Origin: a virus
DNA length: 22,488 nt
Strand: one strand, 5' to 3'
IMG/VR virus record: IMGVR_UViG_3300021964_011795
Coordinates: 1 to 22,488 of that record
Shown here: piece after piece, positions 374 through 22,488 of the stretch
Layout: every line of letters starts with the position of its first letter
Position numbering within the stretch: the stretch's first letter is position 1
Notes under the pieces: model-generated
Databases searched by the model: none
Told to the model about the DNA's origin: nothing
What the model saw: only the letters and a program-made list of their open reading frames with translations
Translations under genes and position numbers: made by a program

Positions 374-1963
374 TTAACTGGCAATATATTGGAACGGTTT
401 TGAACCCGACAGTTTGAAATAGGCCAATCGCTGTTCACTGCCCCATAGAGAGTTGGTCACTGTGTAATCGTCTGAATTGCCTGTTGTGAATATCCGATCT
501 GTAGCATTGTTTTGGAACCAATTGACAACCTGGATAGGTGTCCAGTCAGGATGAATCTGCATCAGCAAAGCGGCCATTCCCGCAATTTGTGGAGAAGCCA
601 TGCTGGTTCCATTGATATTCATTTGCCAGAAACTGTTGTTCAAATAATACACTCTTCTAGAACCTGTGAAATTTGGTGCTGTATTGCTACAAGCACCTAT
701 TATGTTTGTTCCAGCGGCATAGATATTGATTGCGGCACCACCATCACTGTAACCGGCTTTTTCGTCCTGTGTTGTAGAAGGAGATTGATTACCTATTGCA
801 CCAACATTGAATCCAGGATTGGATCCCAGTCGAGGTGATGAACCTCTATGATAATAACCGTTTCCGGTATACAGTCCTGAATATGAAACATAATTGTTGT
901 AGTCATCGCCGTTTTCCACGTCCTGTTTCATTGAATTGTTGCCTGCCGCGATGCACACAATTATTCCTGCATCAGTTAATTGTTCAACTGATGTGTCCAC
1001 ACTGTTCATCACAATAGGTATTTGATAATAACCGCTACCGGCATTTCTTCCAGTGACTCCTTTTGAAACTAAATCTGCTCGTTCAGTCAATGTGTGAGGA
1101 GCATTATTATAAGGCGAATCTCCTCTGTATGAACCACCAGTTAATGTGGAATATACTTGAAGATTATTATCAACAATAGTGTTCGGAGACACGTTGGTGT
1201 TCAAATATAATGCATACCCCCAACTCATATTGACCACTGTGGGTCTTCCGTTTGTTTTTGCGTTGTGCCAACCCAATAGTGTATCAAACGCATCAGCAAT
1301 AGATAATTCATTTGTATCATTGTCAAATATAGTTTGTACATAGATGTCGGCATTTTTGGCCCAACCAAATGTTTTACCTGCCATTATAGATGCCACGTGT
1401 GTTCCGTGACCGTCAATATCTGTATAATGATTAGCAGGCATTGTTCCTGACACGCCAGATTCAGTAAACCAGTCGATCTGTTTTACTCTGGAAACTCCGT
1501 TCGCATCTTGGAATTCTGGATGATCTGCTTGTATGCCTGAATCCATTATCACAACATCAACTCCTGTACCGTCAAGAACATAGTTATAAGTTCCTCCGGG
1601 ATCATTGAGTGATGTGGAATAAATGTTGGTAGCAGAAGTGTGTCTCAACAAACCCCAATTCTGTTGTTCTCCTGCGGCATTGGAAGTTTTACTAAAATTT
1701 CCATCCTGTATTTTATCTGATGTAATGAATCCTAATCCTGCTTTTTCCACAGACATCACTCTGCTGTCATTTTTTAATGAGTCTGCTTCTGGGTCAGTTA
1801 GATCGTAGTGTGTTATTCTGTTATTGGTTGATCTTAATTTGATTACTGTGACTGCTCGATCCGGAATGTTTGCTATGGGAGAACCACTGGTGTCTGTTGT
1901 CAACTCAGTGTGCAACTGTTGCCAATCAACTCCTTTGTTTACTGTGACGATATATTCAGCCAT
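374..1963 (-). CDS. Subtilisin-like serine protease (peptidase S8)
   Basis: 529 residues with a complete S8 catalytic triad: Asp141 in VVIMDSGIQADHP, His186 in DIDGHGTHVASIMAG and Ser454 in NGTSMASPQIAGMAALL. The oxyanion Asn is N342 in IAAGNNS. Residues 1-80 (MAEYIVTVNKG... SRVMSVEK) resemble an I9-type inhibitor propeptide that would fold the enzyme and be cleaved off. There is no signal peptide, so secretion by the Sec route is unlikely. The gene lies between two fibre-like genes, starting 6 bases after the stop of the 1156-residue fibre gene, which suggests co-expression with virion parts. A tail-associated or assembly-related protease is a reasonable inference, but a role in host protein cleavage at lysis is also possible. 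The enzyme class is secure; the target is unknown. Confidence 0.93.
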   Translation of the reverse strand: MAEYIVTVNKGVDWQQLHTELTTDTSGSPIANIPDRAVTVIKLRSTNNRITHYDLTDPEADSLKNDSRVMSVEKAGLGFITSDKIQDGNFSKTSNAAGEQQNWGLLRHTSATNIYSTSLNDPGGTYNYVLDGTGVDVVIMDSGIQADHPEFQDANGVSRVKQIDWFTESGVSGTMPANHYTDIDGHGTHVASIMAGKTFGWAKNADIYVQTIFDNDTNELSIADAFDTLLGWHNAKTNGRPTVVNMSWGYALYLNTNVSPNTIVDNNLQVYSTLTGGSYRGDSPYNNAPHTLTERADLVSKGVTGRNAGSGYYQIPIVMNSVDTSVEQLTDAGIIVCIAAGNNSMKQDVENGDDYNNYVSYSGLYTGNGYYHRGSSPRLGSNPGFNVGAIGNQSPSTTQDEKAGYSDGGAAINIYAAGTNIIGACSNTAPNFTGSRRVYYLNNSFWQMNINGTSMASPQIAGMAALLMQIHPDWTPIQVVNWFQNNATDRIFTTGNSDDYTVTNSLWGSEQRLAYFKLSGSKPFQYIAS

Positions 1964-8496: not shown

Positions 8497-8524
8497 ATTA
8501 TAGCATAGTGTTGTTATATGTCAA
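8497..8524 (-). promoter_or_regulatory. Perfect-consensus sigma70-type promoter for uvsE
   Basis: TTGACA (8519-8524) and TATAAT (8497-8502), minus strand, are separated by 16 bases, with TGC just before the -10 (extended -10). The -35 overlaps the stop codon of the helicase gene. The -10 ends six bases before the ATG at 8490, so the expected start point is at or next to the start codon. Confidence 0.85.
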
Positions 8525-11500
8525 ACTGCTTTCTTAAGTGGATCTGTGTCATAAGTTTTGCCTTGGTGTAACGTCCTACCTGTTGACAAACTCCATTCAC
8601 CTTTCTCTATCATCATTCCCACATATCTTCCTAGATTTTGCTTCTTTTTTTGATTAGGCCTATATGTCTTAATTTTATTATCCTTGATTGCAAGATGTAT
8701 TTCATCTGATTTGTAGGTCCCTCGAGGAGTTATCAAAAGTTCGCCTTCATTTAACAATCCATACCCAGTAGACTTTTGTAAGTCTTTTACTTTGTGATCA
8801 TACTCTCGTAATATCTTTTTTTCAGCAGACGTGTATCTACGCCAGGGTTTTTCTTTACCATACATCTTCTTGCCATTTGATATCAATGATCTTACTGTAG
8901 AAGCCGTTAGTTTTACGCCAGTTTCTGCAAATATGTAATCTACCAACACACTGTTGTTCTTTAGGAAGTAAGTGCCTTTTATTTTATCACCCATCTCATA
9001 TCCACACAATTGATTTAAATTCTTTTTGTAATCGTTTTTGTGTTTTAGGCCGGACACATATTCAACTATTTTCTCACACACTTTCCTTTGTGTTTTAGGG
9101 TAGTTATCTTTATACTTTTCCCATAAAATGTCAATCTTAAATGTTCCCTTGCCAAATGCTAATATAACAAGATCCCAAACATCTTTTTTCTTTTCACCTT
9201 CAAATAAAGAACGATCCACAAACGGTAAATTAAGAATATCTTCTCTATATGTAGAAAAGTTAGTATTAGGGTGAAATTGTTTAGCGACGTGATTTTCTAC
9301 CACAGTTCTAATCTGCTGTTTTTGAACTTCGGCAAGTTTTTCTTGCTGTTCTTTCCATTCAAAAATTTGAATTTTTCTTTCTGGATTAACCTTATAAGAC
9401 CTTCCATGTAAAAGTTTTCTAAGTTGCATAACCTTTCTATGTGTTGGTACTTTCTTTCCTGTTCGTTCGTGAATTTCAAGAGACTCAGAAAATTTAGATA
9501 ATATTTCTTTTTCAAGATCTTGAAGTTTATTTTGTGTTTTTACTCCAAAACATAAATTTTGTTTTTCATATTCGTTTTGATAATAATCAATAATTTCGTT
9601 AGTTTTTTCAAATAAACGATAATGTTTACCAAATGCCACATAACTGTTAAAAGCGCCGGTGAGGACAGAGGTATCTACTTCGCTGTAAAAAGTTTCAAGG
9701 TCTCGGCCTCTTACCTTAGACCCTCCAGGTTTGCTAATACCTCTGACTGCTTTAAATATCACACTATCACGAATATCTTCAAATCCGTGTTGTAGTTTTT
9801 CACCTACACGAACAACAGTTTCGCAGATTCTGTTTCGATAAGACTGTTCATCTTCCAACTCTTCTTTATGCGTTGCTATCACAAGATCGTTGTATTTTCG
9901 ATATTGAGGACCTCGTGCACCACGATTAACATCTTGATAAATTCTCAACTCACTATGGGTTGGATCCATGAAACAGTTACCTTGTACCCATCCGTCCTTT
10001 GGATCCCACCCTTCACCTAATAGGAAAACGTGTCCAAAGTCAGCACCTTCTGGGTAAACATCAGGAATAGCCTCTACTTTTCTTAATATTGCAGATGTTT
10101 TAAAACTCTTAGTATCTGCTACAATAAAAGGCCGATTAAGAATATCTCTATATCGTTTTGTGTTACTTGAAATAATACCACTACGCATCAGTGTTCGAAG
10201 GATTTGTTCTTTAAGTTTTTGATAGATTTTTTCAAATTCTACAATATCATCTATACGGTTAAAAGTGTATTTCATATATTTGATATCGTGTTCGATGTAA
10301 GCACGTATATTAGCATCAAGTTGTTCCGCCCAATGTAAAGGAACAACAACATCGTCGAACTTAACAATAGGAAGTTTATCTTCCCCAATTTCAATTTGCC
10401 ATTCTTCGGGATATGCTGTGTGATCATATTCATATACTAGTTGACGAGTTTGTCGTTTGTAGCCTAACTTGACTGCTGTTTGTTCGTCAAGGTCTTTGAT
10501 ATAGATATCGGCAAAGTTATCGTCGTCCATGGATTCAACAGAACCTTTACCTCGTGCTACACGAATGTTAGCACTTGTCATGTACGACCATTTTACTTTG
10601 ACTACTTTATCATCAAGCGGTGCTCTCCAACTTGAATCTAATGGTTGAATATTGTGATGTACTTCGTCAATGTGCTGAAAGAATATACTTTTCTTTAATG
10701 CTGATAAGAATAGACCTACTTTTTCATAACTGTTATTAGTAACGTGAATCCAAACAGTTGAGTTTTTGTACTTCTTTATTAGTTTAATAAAATTTTGTTC
10801 ACTTTTTGGAATGTCACATAAATGTTTTAATGTAGCAAGGTCGTCCATGTTAGCACCTTTTGTTGCTTCACCAAAAACAATATGTCTGACATTGTTTTTT
10901 AGGGCAAGGTCGTGTTCTACTTGCTTAATAAGGTTAGTCTTAAGCACTGCTGTATTAGGATTAACAATAGCATTGATCGGATAAGATTTTTCGAAATCCC
11001 ACAACGGTTCAATATATAAATCGTAAATCAATCGAGGCATTGAGCCTTTACCGGTTGATGCCGGCCAGTGCTGAAATATTTTTATACGACCTTTGGTGTC
11101 TTTATGTATCGTAATCTGAGATCCACAGTCGTCTATTGCTTCTTTAAAAAACTCATCACGGGGAGATAAAGCAAAGTAAACTTTTTGTTTACGATTTTTT
11201 AGATACATTCTTACAGTATCAACAGCATCAATTGAAAAAATTTCTTCTCTAAAAATGTAACCTACGTCTGGATTGAATTTTTCAGCACGGAATGATGCTT
11301 TGGTCTTATTTGTTACAAAAATCAGTTTATCAACATTTGTATTTTGTATTACGCTATTTTTATTTGCTACATCTTTGTGTGCCAAACCTTTATGGATATT
11401 TTGTTCTTCATATCTTTTAGACTCGAAAGCAATAGAAGTATTGTCGCCAGTTTCTAAAAAGTCCATCCCTTCGGCATTAGCACCACTGGTAATAACATCA

Positions 11501-11709
11501 AGGTTTAACTTTTTACGGATTTTTGCAGGTACATTGTTTAAATCTCTAGTGTGATATACATTATTAAGACTTGTTGCTTTGCGATAAATGTATGAGTGTA
11601 ATTCAAAAAGATCCGAATTGCTATCTAAAATATCTACTATATCAAAATGATTTTTGTTATCTGAATAGACTTGTTTCAAGTCGTTAATTGTTTTAATTTT
11701 AATAGTCAT
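8521..11709 (-). CDS. HsdR-like PD-(D/E)XK nuclease / SF2 helicase fusion
   Basis: 1062 residues. Residues about 75-140 look like a restriction-type nuclease: G-M-D83, then E96-S97-K98 in IAFESKRY, then DKLIFVTNKTKASFRAEKF as in Mrr-like cores. Residues about 210-600 hold SF2 helicase motifs: a Walker A-like PASTGKGS (K221), DEVHH (348-352, DEAH-type), YMTSANIR (376-383, motif III position), GEGWDP (565-570) and QDVNRGAR (592-599, arginine-finger motif VI). About 400 further residues, Lys-rich, have no recognised domain. The order nuclease-helicase-extra domain is that of type I restriction HsdR subunits, but no methylase or specificity gene is nearby. Walker A has Gly where Thr/Ser normally follows the Lys. 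It is more AT-rich than most neighbours. It could be a stand-alone defence or anti-competitor nuclease, or a host-DNA degrading enzyme. Architecture is well supported; role is open. Confidence 0.75.
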   Translation of the reverse strand: MTIKIKTINDLKQVYSDNKNHFDIVDILDSNSDLFELHSYIYRKATSLNNVYHTRDLNNVPAKIRKKLNLDVITSGANAEGMDFLETGDNTSIAFESKRYEEQNIHKGLAHKDVANKNSVIQNTNVDKLIFVTNKTKASFRAEKFNPDVGYIFREEIFSIDAVDTVRMYLKNRKQKVYFALSPRDEFFKEAIDDCGSQITIHKDTKGRIKIFQHWPASTGKGSMPRLIYDLYIEPLWDFEKSYPINAIVNPNTAVLKTNLIKQVEHDLALKNNVRHIVFGEATKGANMDDLATLKHLCDIPKSEQNFIKLIKKYKNSTVWIHVTNNSYEKVGLFLSALKKSIFFQHIDEVHHNIQPLDSSWRAPLDDKVVKVKWSYMTSANIRVARGKGSVESMDDDNFADIYIKDLDEQTAVKLGYKRQTRQLVYEYDHTAYPEEWQIEIGEDKLPIVKFDDVVVPLHWAEQLDANIRAYIEHDIKYMKYTFNRIDDIVEFEKIYQKLKEQILRTLMRSGIISSNTKRYRDILNRPFIVADTKSFKTSAILRKVEAIPDVYPEGADFGHVFLLGEGWDPKDGWVQGNCFMDPTHSELRIYQDVNRGARGPQYRKYNDLVIATHKEELEDEQSYRNRICETVVRVGEKLQHGFEDIRDSVIFKAVRGISKPGGSKVRGRDLETFYSEVDTSVLTGAFNSYVAFGKHYRLFEKTNEIIDYYQNEYEKQNLCFGVKTQNKLQDLEKEILSKFSESLEIHERTGKKVPTHRKVMQLRKLLHGRSYKVNPERKIQIFEWKEQQEKLAEVQKQQIRTVVENHVAKQFHPNTNFSTYREDILNLPFVDRSLFEGEKKKDVWDLVILAFGKGTFKIDILWEKYKDNYPKTQRKVCEKIVEYVSGLKHKNDYKKNLNQLCGYEMGDKIKGTYFLKNNSVLVDYIFAETGVKLTASTVRSLISNGKKMYGKEKPWRRYTSAEKKILREYDHKVKDLQKSTGYGLLNEGELLITPRGTYKSDEIHLAIKDNKIKTYRPNQKKKQNLGRYVGMMIEKGEWSLSTGRTLHQGKTYDTDPLKKAV

Positions 11710-18848: not shown

Positions 18849-18864
18849 CATAAATACACACATA
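18849..18864 (+). promoter_or_regulatory. Late-type promoter CATAAATA with CACACA initial transcript
   Basis: CATAAATACACACATA on the plus strand lies ten bases before the ATG at 18867. The 15-base part ATAAATACACACATA (18850-18864) is identical to the element before the secreted peptide gene at 21693-21707. It fits the T4 late box (TATAAATA) with one change and no -35. Confidence 0.65.
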
Positions 18865-18866
18865 TT

Positions 18867-19145
18867 ATGGATTTTGTAACACTAATAGCAGAAGTAGGAT
18901 TTCCTATCGCAGGTGCCATAGCGGCGGGTGCCTTTGTGTTTATCACATTAAAATTTATTTTGGCTTCAGTGACCGGATCAGTGAATAGCCTTAAAGCCAT
19001 TATTGGTGCACTGGACAACCGGGTTCAGACCATGAACAACGATCTGGTGAAAATTGATGCTCTACTGAGTTACGTGTTGAAGATCAGACCAAACGCGGAC
19101 AGGATAGCCGCCAACGAGGGAAAGAACGATGCTCGCCGAGACTAG
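18867..19145 (+). CDS. Holin-like small membrane protein 1
   Basis: 92 residues. One hydrophobic segment (about residues 8-33, VGFPIAGAIAAGAFVFITLK then FILAS) is followed by a heptad-like stretch (NSLKAIIGALDNRVQTMNND then LVKIDALLSYVLK) and a polar Asp/Arg tail. This layout (single N-terminal membrane span, amphipathic coiled coil, charged C-terminus) is that of UviB/BhlA-type holins and related phage membrane proteins. A holin would pierce the inner membrane at the end of infection. No endolysin is in the window, so the lysis role is inferred. It overlaps the next gene by 17 bases, and its product is similar in plan to that protein. Late-type promoter directly upstream. Confidence 0.6.
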   Translation: MDFVTLIAEVGFPIAGAIAAGAFVFITLKFILASVTGSVNSLKAIIGALDNRVQTMNNDLVKIDALLSYVLKIRPNADRIAANEGKNDARRD

Positions 19146-19470
19146 TGGCATAGCAGGAATGATCAAGGACTTTGGGTTCCCCATAGTTGCGGCCATGGGA
19201 CTGGGCTACTTCGTTTTTTACATCTGGAAATGGGTGACAGAAGAGATCAAACCCGTGCTGGGTGATGCCTCGAGCACACTGATCAAACTGGTTGATCGTA
19301 TCCGCATGCTGGACAATGATATGATCAGACTCAACACCAAACTTTCGATGGTTTTGGAATACAAGGAAGAGATCGTCAAAGCCGGACGTTCGGATGAGTT
19401 GGACGAGATACTCGCAAAATACAAGAGTCATTCGCAATCTTTCGACTCCACGGGTGATACCAAAAAATAA
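19129..19470 (+). CDS. Holin-like small membrane protein 2 (paralogue)
   Basis: 113 residues starting inside the end of the previous gene (ATG 19129). It repeats the same plan: a membrane segment (about 15-36, FGFPIVAAMGLGYFVFYIW), a coiled-coil-like region (STLIKLVDRIRMLDNDMIRL then NTKLSMVLEYKEEIVKAG) and a charged Lys/Ser-rich tail. The GFPI...F motif is shared with the first protein, so the pair is a duplication. Tandem holin-like genes are known in phages, where one may modulate the other. The gene stops directly against the stop of the convergent cyclase gene; a 14-base AT palindrome (19464-19477) covers both stops. Lysis or membrane role is inference. Confidence 0.6.
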   Translation: MLAETSGIAGMIKDFGFPIVAAMGLGYFVFYIWKWVTEEIKPVLGDASSTLIKLVDRIRMLDNDMIRLNTKLSMVLEYKEEIVKAGRSDELDEILAKYKSHSQSFDSTGDTKK

Positions 19471-21480
19471 TTATTTTGTTGTTGCTCGGAACGTTCCGTC
19501 CCAGTCTTTAGGTTTGCCTGCTTTGATACGAGATTGCATATTGTCGTAATAACCTATCATGTCCTCGTGGAACTCCTTGGCTATTTCTAAATTTTTCAGT
19601 GCTTTTTTCCAATCACCTTTATAATACGATTCAAGGAACTGTTTGTGATGTTCGGTCTCCCGTCCCACAGTATAAATTTTGACTCCAATTTTTTTACCTT
19701 TGACGGCTATGCAGTCCAGTTCGAACACGTCGATGTTGCTCCTGACCTGTTCCGCTGTTTCTGGTCCCAGCACTATCTGAACACCATATGTCTTGCTTTG
19801 TCCTTCCAACCTTGCGGCCAGGTTAACACCGTCACCCAGACAGGTGTAGTCGAATCGCTGATCCGATCCCATGTTACCCACCACCACTTCAGCAGTGTTG
19901 ATGCCCATGCCCATGCCGAACGCCGGTATGCCCTCCTGTTGTATTTCTTCATTGAAACTTTTTAAACTATCCAACATCTTTATGGCCGTGTTCACGGCGT
20001 TCTCTGCGTGTCTGGTGTCTTTTAAAGGAGCGTTCCAAAAAGCCATCTGTGCGTCTCCTATGTACTTGTCTATGGTACCATTGTTCTCCAGTATCTCTCG
20101 TGTCATGGCGGTCATGTACCTGTTCATTATTTTCGTGAGTCCCTGTACGTCTCGGCCATAGTGTTCCGATATGGCGGTGAATCCCCTGACGTCAGTGAAC
20201 ATTATGCTCAACTCTCTGGAGTCTCCGCCCAACTTCAACAGGTTGGGATTCTTCTGTAGTTGTGCCACCATGTCAGGTGATAGGTATGTGCCAAACTGTT
20301 TCTTGATCTGTTGTTTTTGTAAAAACTCAACAATGAATCTATTGAAAATAGCATGAAAACTTGTGATGGTAATTACCAAATACAACCAACTGATATCCCA
20401 CAGTTGTAGGTGCCTAGTAAATGCAAAATAACTGGCGTATGCCGACCCAGAATAAATTAGTAGTAGTAGGGTGCCTATCAGCCAGTATGGGGCGTAAGCG
20501 GCGCTTAAAATTAGAATAAAGGCTATAATAGCGGTGCTTATATACTCTAAAAAATTCGCATAATCAAGCCTTACAATAGTGTCTCCATTGATGATTGTTT
20601 GTAGAGAAACAGCAGTGGTAATATGAGAATATTCTTCACCATTGGGTGTGGCTATCACGCCTCCCAACCCTTCTGCGGTAATACCAACAATAATTGTTTT
20701 GCCCTGTAGAGATTTGAAATCGTCCACTACACTCACAGTTTCAAACTGTTTGTTCCATCTCAACCATATACGAGCATTGGCATCTGTCTTGATGGTTTGA
20801 TACTTAGGAATACGCATGGCAATGATTCCACCTTCGCCTGTCTTCACTTGATATGATGGATCTCCAACAGCAACACGAATTGTTTCTATCGCAATGGCAG
20901 GATATATTTCTGTGCCCACTCGCATCAACAGAGGTAATCTTCTAACCACTCCGTCTATCTCTGGTGCTGTGTTGATCACACCCACACCGTCGGCAACCTC
21001 ACCAATGTCAGCGATAGGTCCCAACATACCCGGCCATTCAAACAACCAAGGCATGGGATCTCCAATTTTAGCAACACCTCTTGGCACTGCATTTCGATTT
21101 GTCTGTGTGGTTCCTACCTGTGCTATGATCACACCATTGTTTTGTAAAGCGTCTGTCAATGCTTGATCACCACCCATCCTGTCTGGTTCTGAAAACAGTA
21201 TGGGCAACACGATAACACCCGCGCCTGCTTCTCTCAATCTCCAGATAACATCTGCTATCACATCACGCTTCCAGGGCCACTGTCCATACTGTGCAATGGC
21301 ACGTTCATCTATTTCCACAATGGCCACATCCTGTGACACAGTGGGTGTGTCATACTTCTGTATCAGATCAAACGATTTCAGTCTGGCAGTCTGTTTGACA
21401 AATGGATCATTGAATCCCCATGCCATCAACACTGCGAGTATTATGACACTGAATATCCAATGTGTTAAAATTTTTTTCAT
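19471..21480 (-). CDS. CHASE2-domain adenylate cyclase (class III)
   Basis: 669 residues from the ATG at 21480, which overlaps the previous stop (ATGA); an in-frame start 12 codons upstream is rejected for that reason. One N-terminal membrane segment (about 8-24), then a CHASE2 sensor region (about 38-305; VAIVEIDERAIAQYGQWPWK, then VIVLPILFSEPD, then GKTIIVGITAEGLGG), three membrane segments (about 312-329, 333-354, 363-379) and a C-terminal class III catalytic domain. All key residues are present: metal Asp430 (MFTDVRGFTAIS) and Asp476 (KYIGDAQ), adenine-specifying Lys472 and Asp544 (DYTCLGDGVNLAARLE), and transition-state Asn553 and Arg557. It should make cAMP in the cytosol in response to a periplasmic signal. 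A phage-encoded enzyme of this kind is unusual. A TPR-like tail (SYYKGDWKKALKNLEIAKEF) follows. Enzyme class is secure; signal and purpose are unknown. Confidence 0.93.
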   Translation of the reverse strand: MKKILTHWIFSVIILAVLMAWGFNDPFVKQTARLKSFDLIQKYDTPTVSQDVAIVEIDERAIAQYGQWPWKRDVIADVIWRLREAGAGVIVLPILFSEPDRMGGDQALTDALQNNGVIIAQVGTTQTNRNAVPRGVAKIGDPMPWLFEWPGMLGPIADIGEVADGVGVINTAPEIDGVVRRLPLLMRVGTEIYPAIAIETIRVAVGDPSYQVKTGEGGIIAMRIPKYQTIKTDANARIWLRWNKQFETVSVVDDFKSLQGKTIIVGITAEGLGGVIATPNGEEYSHITTAVSLQTIINGDTIVRLDYANFLEYISTAIIAFILILSAAYAPYWLIGTLLLLIYSGSAYASYFAFTRHLQLWDISWLYLVITITSFHAIFNRFIVEFLQKQQIKKQFGTYLSPDMVAQLQKNPNLLKLGGDSRELSIMFTDVRGFTAISEHYGRDVQGLTKIMNRYMTAMTREILENNGTIDKYIGDAQMAFWNAPLKDTRHAENAVNTAIKMLDSLKSFNEEIQQEGIPAFGMGMGINTAEVVVGNMGSDQRFDYTCLGDGVNLAARLEGQSKTYGVQIVLGPETAEQVRSNIDVFELDCIAVKGKKIGVKIYTVGRETEHHKQFLESYYKGDWKKALKNLEIAKEFHEDMIGYYDNMQSRIKAGKPKDWDGTFRATTK

Positions 21481-21692
21481 TGATTTTGTTGAAAACAGCC
21501 TGCAACCACCGAACAATACTGTGTTGGATCATTTGAGATCAATATCTTTTCTGAATCTTCTATAGGTTCTTGAAATGGAGTATTGGTATTTTCTGTGGTT
21601 ATTTCTTCGGTTGTCTGAGACTGTGTCACATAGAGATCATTGGCCGAAACTGCCGTGATGAACAACACACAGAATAAAAATGTTCTAATCAT
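21477..21692 (-). CDS. Short secreted peptide, curlin-type motif, coupled to cyclase
   Basis: 71 residues from the ATG at 21692, just after a late-type box; longer in-frame starts up to 21974 run into the curlin gene and are rejected. The first 18 residues MIRTFLFCVLFITAVSAN are a standard signal peptide with cleavage after VSA. The mature part begins NDLYVTQSQ, like the NAIYVTQSG unit in the curlin-type protein, then an acidic Thr/Glu/Asn region and a C-terminal CSVVAGCFQQNQ with two cysteines. The stop overlaps the cyclase start by the ATGA arrangement, so the two are translated together. The peptide reaches the periplasm or surface, the side where CHASE2 lies; a ligand or partner of the cyclase is possible but speculative. 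Confidence 0.7.
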   Translation of the reverse strand: MIRTFLFCVLFITAVSANDLYVTQSQTTEEITTENTNTPFQEPIEDSEKILISNDPTQYCSVVAGCFQQNQ

Positions 21693-21707
21693 TATGTGTG
21701 TATTTAT
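21693..21707 (-). promoter_or_regulatory. Late-type promoter ATAAATACACACATA
   Basis: ATAAATACACACATA on the minus strand (part of AAATAAATACACACATAATG) sits directly before the ATG at 21692, in the 28-base gap after the curlin-type gene. Identical over 15 bases to the element at 18850-18864 on the other strand. Confidence 0.65.
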
Positions 21708-21720
21708 TTTAAATGGGCAG

Positions 21721-22488
21721 TTAATTTTGATTGATTGTAGTGGTGCCACAGCCGTTTGCATTGGTGCAGATCTGATTGAGTGAATATGTTTGATCAGTGG
21801 AGCCTGTTTGATCCAGATCCAGCGTGGCAGAATATCCCGACATATCAATGGTGGCAGAGTGCGATCCAGAACCATCCTGATTGATGTCCACAGTTTGATT
21901 ACTGCCCACAGTAACATCCAAGAAGTGTTCTCCCGTGCCCTGTTGTAGGATATCCACAGTGTTGCTGGCTCCATTCACGTCCAGGAACAGCATCTTGTCA
22001 CCATCGTCCTTTTGATCAGCGTAGGCAGTGTTTGAGTTACCCGCGATATCTATCTCCATGTAGTGTCCGTTGCTACCAACGCCACCATCGTTCTCTTGTA
22101 GAATCCCTAGGGTGTTGTAGTTGCCCACCACGTTGGTTGAACTGCGATGCCCACCCGCGTCATCCACATTGTCACCCTGTCTCACTGTGATGGAGTTGTT
22201 GGTGCCGTTGATGTCCAACAGTGTGACGTTGTTGTCACTGAATGATCCCGCTGAATTTCCCTGCGTGATTGACACGGTGTTGTCGTCGCCTGTGATCGTG
22301 GCATCTGTCAAATTGGAACTGGTTGATCCTGTGCCCGCCACCAGGTTGTCGTTGTCGTACTGTGTAATGTCTATGTCCGCCCTATCACCGGACTGCGTCA
22401 CGTATATGGCGTTGCCGTTGGTGGTGATGTTCCTGGCGTCTGTTCTCGATTGAAGTTGTGCGGCTGTGGGATCACTGGAGTATGTGGG
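21721..22488 (-). CDS. Curlin-like repeat protein (5' end outside window)
   Basis: 255 residues, open to the window end; the true start and presumably a signal peptide lie beyond base 22488. A GTG at 22401 is not a start, since the frame continues through DARNITTNGNAIYVTQSG upstream. The sequence is a series of G-x-x-N-x5-Q repeats: ITGDDNTVSITQGN, INGTNNSITVRQGD, VVGNYNTLGILQEN, IAGNSNTAYADQK, VNGASNTVDILQQG and so on, spaced about 22-30 residues. This is the CsgA/CsgB curlin pattern, where Asn, Gln and Gly line a beta-helix amyloid. Two cysteines lie near the C-terminus (ICTNANGCG). Phage-borne curlin-like proteins are known in pelagic myophages. Surface fibre, particle or host-aggregation roles are inferred. 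Confidence 0.82.
   Translation of the reverse strand, partial: PTYSSDPTAAQLQSRTDARNITTNGNAIYVTQSGDRADIDITQYDNDNLVAGTGSTSSNLTDATITGDDNTVSITQGNSAGSFSDNNVTLLDINGTNNSITVRQGDNVDDAGGHRSSTNVVGNYNTLGILQENDGGVGSNGHYMEIDIAGNSNTAYADQKDDGDKMLFLDVNGASNTVDILQQGTGEHFLDVTVGSNQTVDINQDGSGSHSATIDMSGYSATLDLDQTGSTDQTYSLNQICTNANGCGTTTINQN

Follow-up and report, generated by a model that had tools for sequence, protein, structure and literature searches.

The curli genes csgF and csgG were reported in pelagimyophages by Zaragoza-Solas et al. 2020 (PMC7029224), and Wittmers et al. 2022 (PMC9599517) described a curli cluster with FecR, curlin and an adenylate cyclase in podo- and myophages. For the curli genes of phage Melnitz, a lysis-timing pore was proposed by Buchholz et al. 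2022 (PMC9004378). In bacteria, the CHASE2 cyclases of S. meliloti sense through the outer-membrane protein NsrA (PMC13001267), and in Burkholderia a FecR protein and a CHASE2 kinase are encoded together in a biofilm operon (PMC5192318). We found no published experimental test of the phage cyclase in the literature.

In this study, we analysed a stretch of 22,488 nucleotides (the window), an IMG/VR virus contig with a CHASE2 adenylate cyclase gene near one end. Because Wittmers et al. reported the gene cluster, the core finding, a phage cluster of curli, FecR and adenylate cyclase genes, is already known. New here are the separate phage clade of the cyclases, the bacterial neighbourhood of FecR and CHASE2, the curlin-like end of FecR, a pair of small proteins, the obligate nature of the module and the missing receptor. 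The most abundant bacteria of the ocean have phages in which a complete membrane-spanning sensor with second-messenger output is a fixed component of an amyloid-secretion module, and the recipient cells apparently have almost no cAMP machinery. An active cyclase would add a new signalling circuit to the infected host and offer a clue to the purpose of the phage curli module.

Results

Structure and conservation of the cyclase

The cyclase and its parts are located as follows.

19471..21480, minus strand: CHASE2 class III adenylate cyclase, 669 aa (ORF, Pfam, residue conservation, AlphaFold2 model)
20563..21441, minus strand: periplasmic CHASE2 sensor domain, residues 14-306 (PF05226, E=3.5e-41; AlphaFold2 model)
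20293..20559, minus strand: three membrane helices and the extension of the last one into the signalling linker, residues 308-396
19672..20214, minus strand: class III cyclase catalytic domain, residues 423-603 (PF00211, conservation, fold match)
19474..19653, minus strand: helical C-terminal tail ending ..DWDGTFRATTK, residues 610-669

The length of 669 aa is counted from the ATG start; a version of 681 aa in the ORF listing starts at a TTG upstream. The AlphaFold2 model (mean pLDDT 84.8, built with 31 phage copies) places, from the N- to the C-terminus, a membrane helix, the periplasmic CHASE2 domain, three membrane helices (residues 308-329, 332-357 and 364-396), the cyclase domain and the helical tail. 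The PF05226 match, with a score of 141.9 bits against a cut-off of 26.3, lies between the first membrane helix and the three further helices, as defines a CHASE2 sensor. The catalytic domain matched PF00211 (Guanylate_cyc; E=2.6e-18, 66.7 bits against a cut-off of 21.9), and the modelled catalytic half aligned with PaCyaB and CyaC at TM scores to target of 0.79-0.84. An ending similar to the tail is also present in bacterial homologues.

All six catalytic residues are found in the window cyclase: D430, D476, K472, T546, N553 and R557. From general knowledge of class III cyclases, we take D430 and D476 to bind metal, K472 and T546 to contact adenine, and N553 and R557 to serve the transition state. 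This is the residue set of class III adenylate and guanylate cyclases (two metal Asp, Lys with Asp/Thr/Ser, Asn with Arg), and the K/T pair predicts ATP as the substrate. A preliminary description of this DNA had recognized a full CHASE2 sensor cyclase with membrane segments and every catalytic residue, and Pfam, the alignment and the AlphaFold2 layout agreed with it.

D430, K472, D476 and R557 were unchanged across 83 aligned phage copies. Between close copies dN/dS was 0.03-0.04, showing that the phage cyclase is under purifying selection; these values and the invariant catalytic residues rule out a degenerate or decaying gene. In one well-supported phage subclade, including Melnitz and locus L012, N553S occurred together with T546D (L012, L021, L022, L026, L028-L030, L049, L002 and L084-L086). 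Because the transition-state Asn is replaced by Ser, with T546D, the cyclases of this subclade may have weak, altered or different activity. The window copy retains the canonical Asn. L028 and L030 seemed to have a second cyclase, which was rejected: L028 has only a stand-alone homologue of the C-terminal tail (118 aa; L028:11234-11590, plus strand), located a few hundred bases past the small membrane proteins.

Phage origin

Carriage by a phage, as claimed in the preliminary description, was borne out by the viral record, by homologues in the isolates Melnitz (host OM43; 55% identity to the window cyclase) and HTVC008M (host SAR11; 50%), and by at least 590 viral stretches that encode relatives. 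Nucleotide matches between the window and isolate phages were never longer than 140 bases. A motif scan for the phage-type cyclase in 85,000 bacterial and archaeal species gave four matches, and each of the contigs concerned also carried the phage-type curli module. We rejected these matches as true bacterial copies and read them as phage sequence binned into MAGs; these contigs (L084-L087), in MAGs of Pirellulales, Rhodobacteraceae and Planctomycetaceae, look mis-binned.

CHASE2 cyclases are common in Alphaproteobacteria. In the CHASE2-cyclase tree that had been proposed along with a search of phage and bacterial databases, the phage copies formed one clade with 100/100 support, apart from the sampled alphaproteobacterial CHASE2 cyclases. 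A bacterial contig or contamination is ruled out by the viral record, the full-length homologues in isolate phages and this single phage clade.

Several other genes of the window are also in keeping with a T4-like marine phage, namely those for SpeD, UvdE, PTPS, HIT and Fe-S proteins and that for a fibre protein, which has short matches to the tail fibres of pelagiphage Mosig and cyanophages. A gene for a subtilase-family (S8) peptidase (374-1963, minus strand) lies beside a long fibre-like gene. A protein of 1062 aa (8521-11709, minus strand) is encoded in an island of low GC, 0.34 versus about 0.42 around it; it has neither a Pfam nor a phage match, and by eye it reads like a helicase or a restriction-type enzyme. 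No riboswitch or other known RNA was found in the window.

The curli module

The following features around the cyclase belong to this part of the window.

18849..18856, plus strand: T4-type late promoter CATAAATA, 17 nt before small membrane protein A
18867..19145, plus strand: small membrane protein A (phrog_18771), module gene
19129..19470, plus strand: small membrane protein B (phrog_18771), module gene, convergent with the cyclase
21477..21692, minus strand: small protein of 71 aa, its N-terminus like a signal peptide, with curlin-like motifs at both termini, overlapping the cyclase translationally
21701..21708, minus strand: T4-type late promoter AATAAATA, 15 nt before the 71-aa gene coupled to the cyclase
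21721..22488, minus strand: curlin-repeat protein (PF07012, E=3.2e-10), 5' end cut by the contig end

The module consists of a pair of small membrane proteins and a gene series that, in related viral contigs, runs csgF, csgG, curlin, fecR, curlin and cyclase. Because the contig ends at 22488, the curlin is the only gene of the csgF/csgG/curlin/fecR set to be seen in the window, and FecR lies outside it. Its counterpart in L012 matches this curlin at 94% and is followed by fecR, curlin, csgG and csgF. In the second curlin of L012 (L012:6307-7776, plus strand), a non-repeat N-terminal region of about 250 aa precedes the repeats; its homologue is cut at position 22488 of the window. The ATG of the cyclase overlaps the stop codon of the preceding gene (ATGA), and homologues of that 71-aa protein occupy the same position in L011-L016.

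FecR, CsgG and curlin accompanied the cyclase in all 41 viral cyclase loci with at least 7 kb of upstream sequence. Conversely, every phage csgG locus of sufficient length (24 of 24) had cyclase, FecR and curlin, and the cyclase kept its adjacency in L021 and L024 despite inversion of the operon relative to it. The phage curli (type VIII secretion) module obligately includes the cyclase, which is not a lone cargo gene. The preliminary description was right to place it among phage-type genes; it missed that the neighbouring repeat gene is a curlin and that the cyclase always belongs to a curli module. It is through this secretion module that the cyclase is tied to surface fibres.

The two small membrane proteins, which are paralogous and unnamed, formed a pair in 29 of the 29 viral loci with both flanks; they stand ahead of csgF or follow the cyclase in convergent orientation. 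Protein A was found only in the Melnitz and HTVC008M records, both with the module, among 50,697 phage records. This pair belongs to the curli module, which is new here. Both proteins are single-helix and coiled-coil-like (92 and 113 aa), and neither matched a kinase or a holin family. Wittmers et al. placed a 'histidine kinase' before csgF (PMC9599517), close in position to protein A and perhaps the same gene; A is not long enough for a kinase and has no kinase match.

Late-type promoters had also been described, and they stood up by position and not by number. The motif ATAAATA occurred four times in the window versus 5.6 expected, with no over-representation. Each of the four copies was followed 13-17 nt later by a start codon on the correct strand, a placement that 2.5% of positions would have by chance, and two of them belong to module genes. 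The motif AATAAATA and its position were repeated in the sister locus L012.

FecR

The phage FecR consists of a signal-peptide-like helix, a FecR beta domain, a helical linker and a beta C-terminus, and its model matches the periplasmic domains of anti-sigma/FecR cell-surface signalling (PupR). The phage FecRs are without the cytoplasmic anti-sigma domain and membrane helix of FecI/FecR iron uptake, and the periplasmic domain directly follows the signal-peptide-like helix. The label 'iron regulator' is misleading for them.

The terminal strand fits the curlin-like pattern x[IV]x[IV]xQ in all 58 complete phage FecRs, compared with 2 of 57 other phage CDS and none of five bacterial FecRs, a pattern set post hoc, as a first narrow version fitted 24/60 and was widened afterwards. 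Q370 was invariant in 31 aligned phage copies. As the C-terminus reads like a curlin repeat, it suggests that the phage FecR could join or cap curlin.

Among the 19 best alphaproteobacterial loci, the phage FecR profile matched an immediate neighbour of the CHASE2 cyclase gene in five, four of them divergent. Because the bacterial FecR and cyclase genes adjoin, the pairing of FecR with CHASE2 is older than the phage module. Unlike the phage FecR, these alphaproteobacterial neighbours have no curlin-like end. Curli genes beside the bacterial pairs were looked for and rejected: CsgG was present in 5 of 24 genomes and in no case on the contig of the listed pair. Taken together, the bacterial pairing, the secreted-type fold and the curlin-like end suggest that FecR may report fibre subunits to the CHASE2 sensor.

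cAMP receptors in hosts and phages

The SAR11 16S probe sequence led to one genome (G228), and the 99 genomes of its family were taken as the probable SAR11-type family. A cNMP-binding domain (PF00027) was absent in 94 of the 99 (five have one), and a class III cyclase was absent in 96 (three have any match). A set of 21 phage records, with the complete genomes of Melnitz and HTVC008M among them, likewise contained no PF00027 match, and a phage-encoded cAMP receptor of this family was rejected on that count. The host of the window phage is inferred to be SAR11-like; if so, the usual cAMP-CRP reader is missing, because 94/99 genomes and 21/21 phage records are without the domain. The cAMP reader in SAR11-type hosts is probably not a CRP-family protein. 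With the obvious receptor absent, a new cAMP target becomes a testable possibility.

Discussion

We suggest, with a probability of roughly 45%, that a late-expressed curli module of the phage uses the cyclase both as its inner-membrane sensor and as its output enzyme, with FecR as the link, and that the cyclase alters cAMP. Curlin subunits would leave through CsgG/CsgF, and the periplasmic FecR would touch the subunits or the fibre through its own C-terminal curlin-like repeat. The FecR domain would in turn touch the CHASE2 domain, so that some state of secretion or assembly could switch the cyclase dimer and change cAMP in the infected cell. A larger claim is that this forms a phage circuit in which FecR, with its own curlin repeat, reports the secretion of amyloid fibres to the CHASE2 cyclase, and a non-CRP receptor reads the cyclic nucleotide in hosts otherwise without cAMP signalling; we regard it as doubtful.

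Many other bacteria use the cAMP-CRP circuit, and the preliminary description considered that the cyclase could raise host cAMP and so act on CRP-controlled metabolism or surface genes; fibres would not need to be sensed for this. The intact catalytic residues would allow it, and our counts of host receptors cover one family, the SAR11-type one. However, the idea of CRP-controlled carbon use found no support for SAR11-type hosts, given the counts of receptors and cyclases above, and in testable loci the cyclase never occurred without curli genes; we consider this explanation improbable. Phages also encode counter-defence against cyclic-nucleotide systems, and the cyclase could flood or mimic the cyclic-nucleotide signal of a host defence. 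It is very improbable here, as no defence genes were seen in the surroundings, effectors that bind cNMP are nearly absent from the SAR11-type family and the linkage to curli genes is constant.

The late-type promoters and the small single-helix, coiled-coil-like proteins that are always in the module would also suit a role in lysis, in which the CsgG pore, the small membrane proteins and the cyclase time lysis or membrane depolarisation, the cyclase being part of the timer. The published pore hypothesis for the Melnitz curli (PMC9004378) points the same way. However, a simple pore would not need the conserved secreted curlin and FecR genes, and no holin family was matched, which makes such a timer quite unlikely. 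It is also conceivable, if unlikely, that the cyclase was inherited from a bacterial pair of FecR and CHASE2 cyclase and that its product serves a phage or host receptor outside PF00027, again with no sensing of fibres. The bacterial pairing, the purifying selection and the lack of PF00027 in the 21 phage records and in 94/99 SAR11-type genomes would all agree with this, but the curlin-like end of FecR would be left unexplained.

The closest known system is the pelagiphage curli/T8SS cluster of Wittmers et al., whose cyclase belongs to the same gene family in the same cluster of CsgF, CsgG, curlin and FecR, with 50-55% identity to isolates; the main text of that paper speaks of an adenylate cyclase and does not name CHASE2 (PMC9599517). 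HTVC008M gp019 has a shorter C-terminus and matches residues 3-591 of the window cyclase only, and Melnitz gp104 carries N553S, whereas the window copy is full and canonical. The alphaproteobacterial CHASE2 cyclases share the architecture of CHASE2 with a class III cyclase and the D/K/D/R catalytic residues, with about 41% identity at most among the best near-full-length matches; S. meliloti CyaD1, CyaD2 and CyaK are likened to them by type, not by alignment. The class IIIb cyclases PaCyaB and Spirulina CyaC are alike in catalytic fold and sequence (31-36% identity), but they have other sensor domains and are not phage-borne. Like the phage module, the Burkholderia operon combines a secreted FecR-domain protein with a CHASE2 sensor; it is not of phage origin and its output is a histidine kinase, whereas the output of the phage module is a cyclase.
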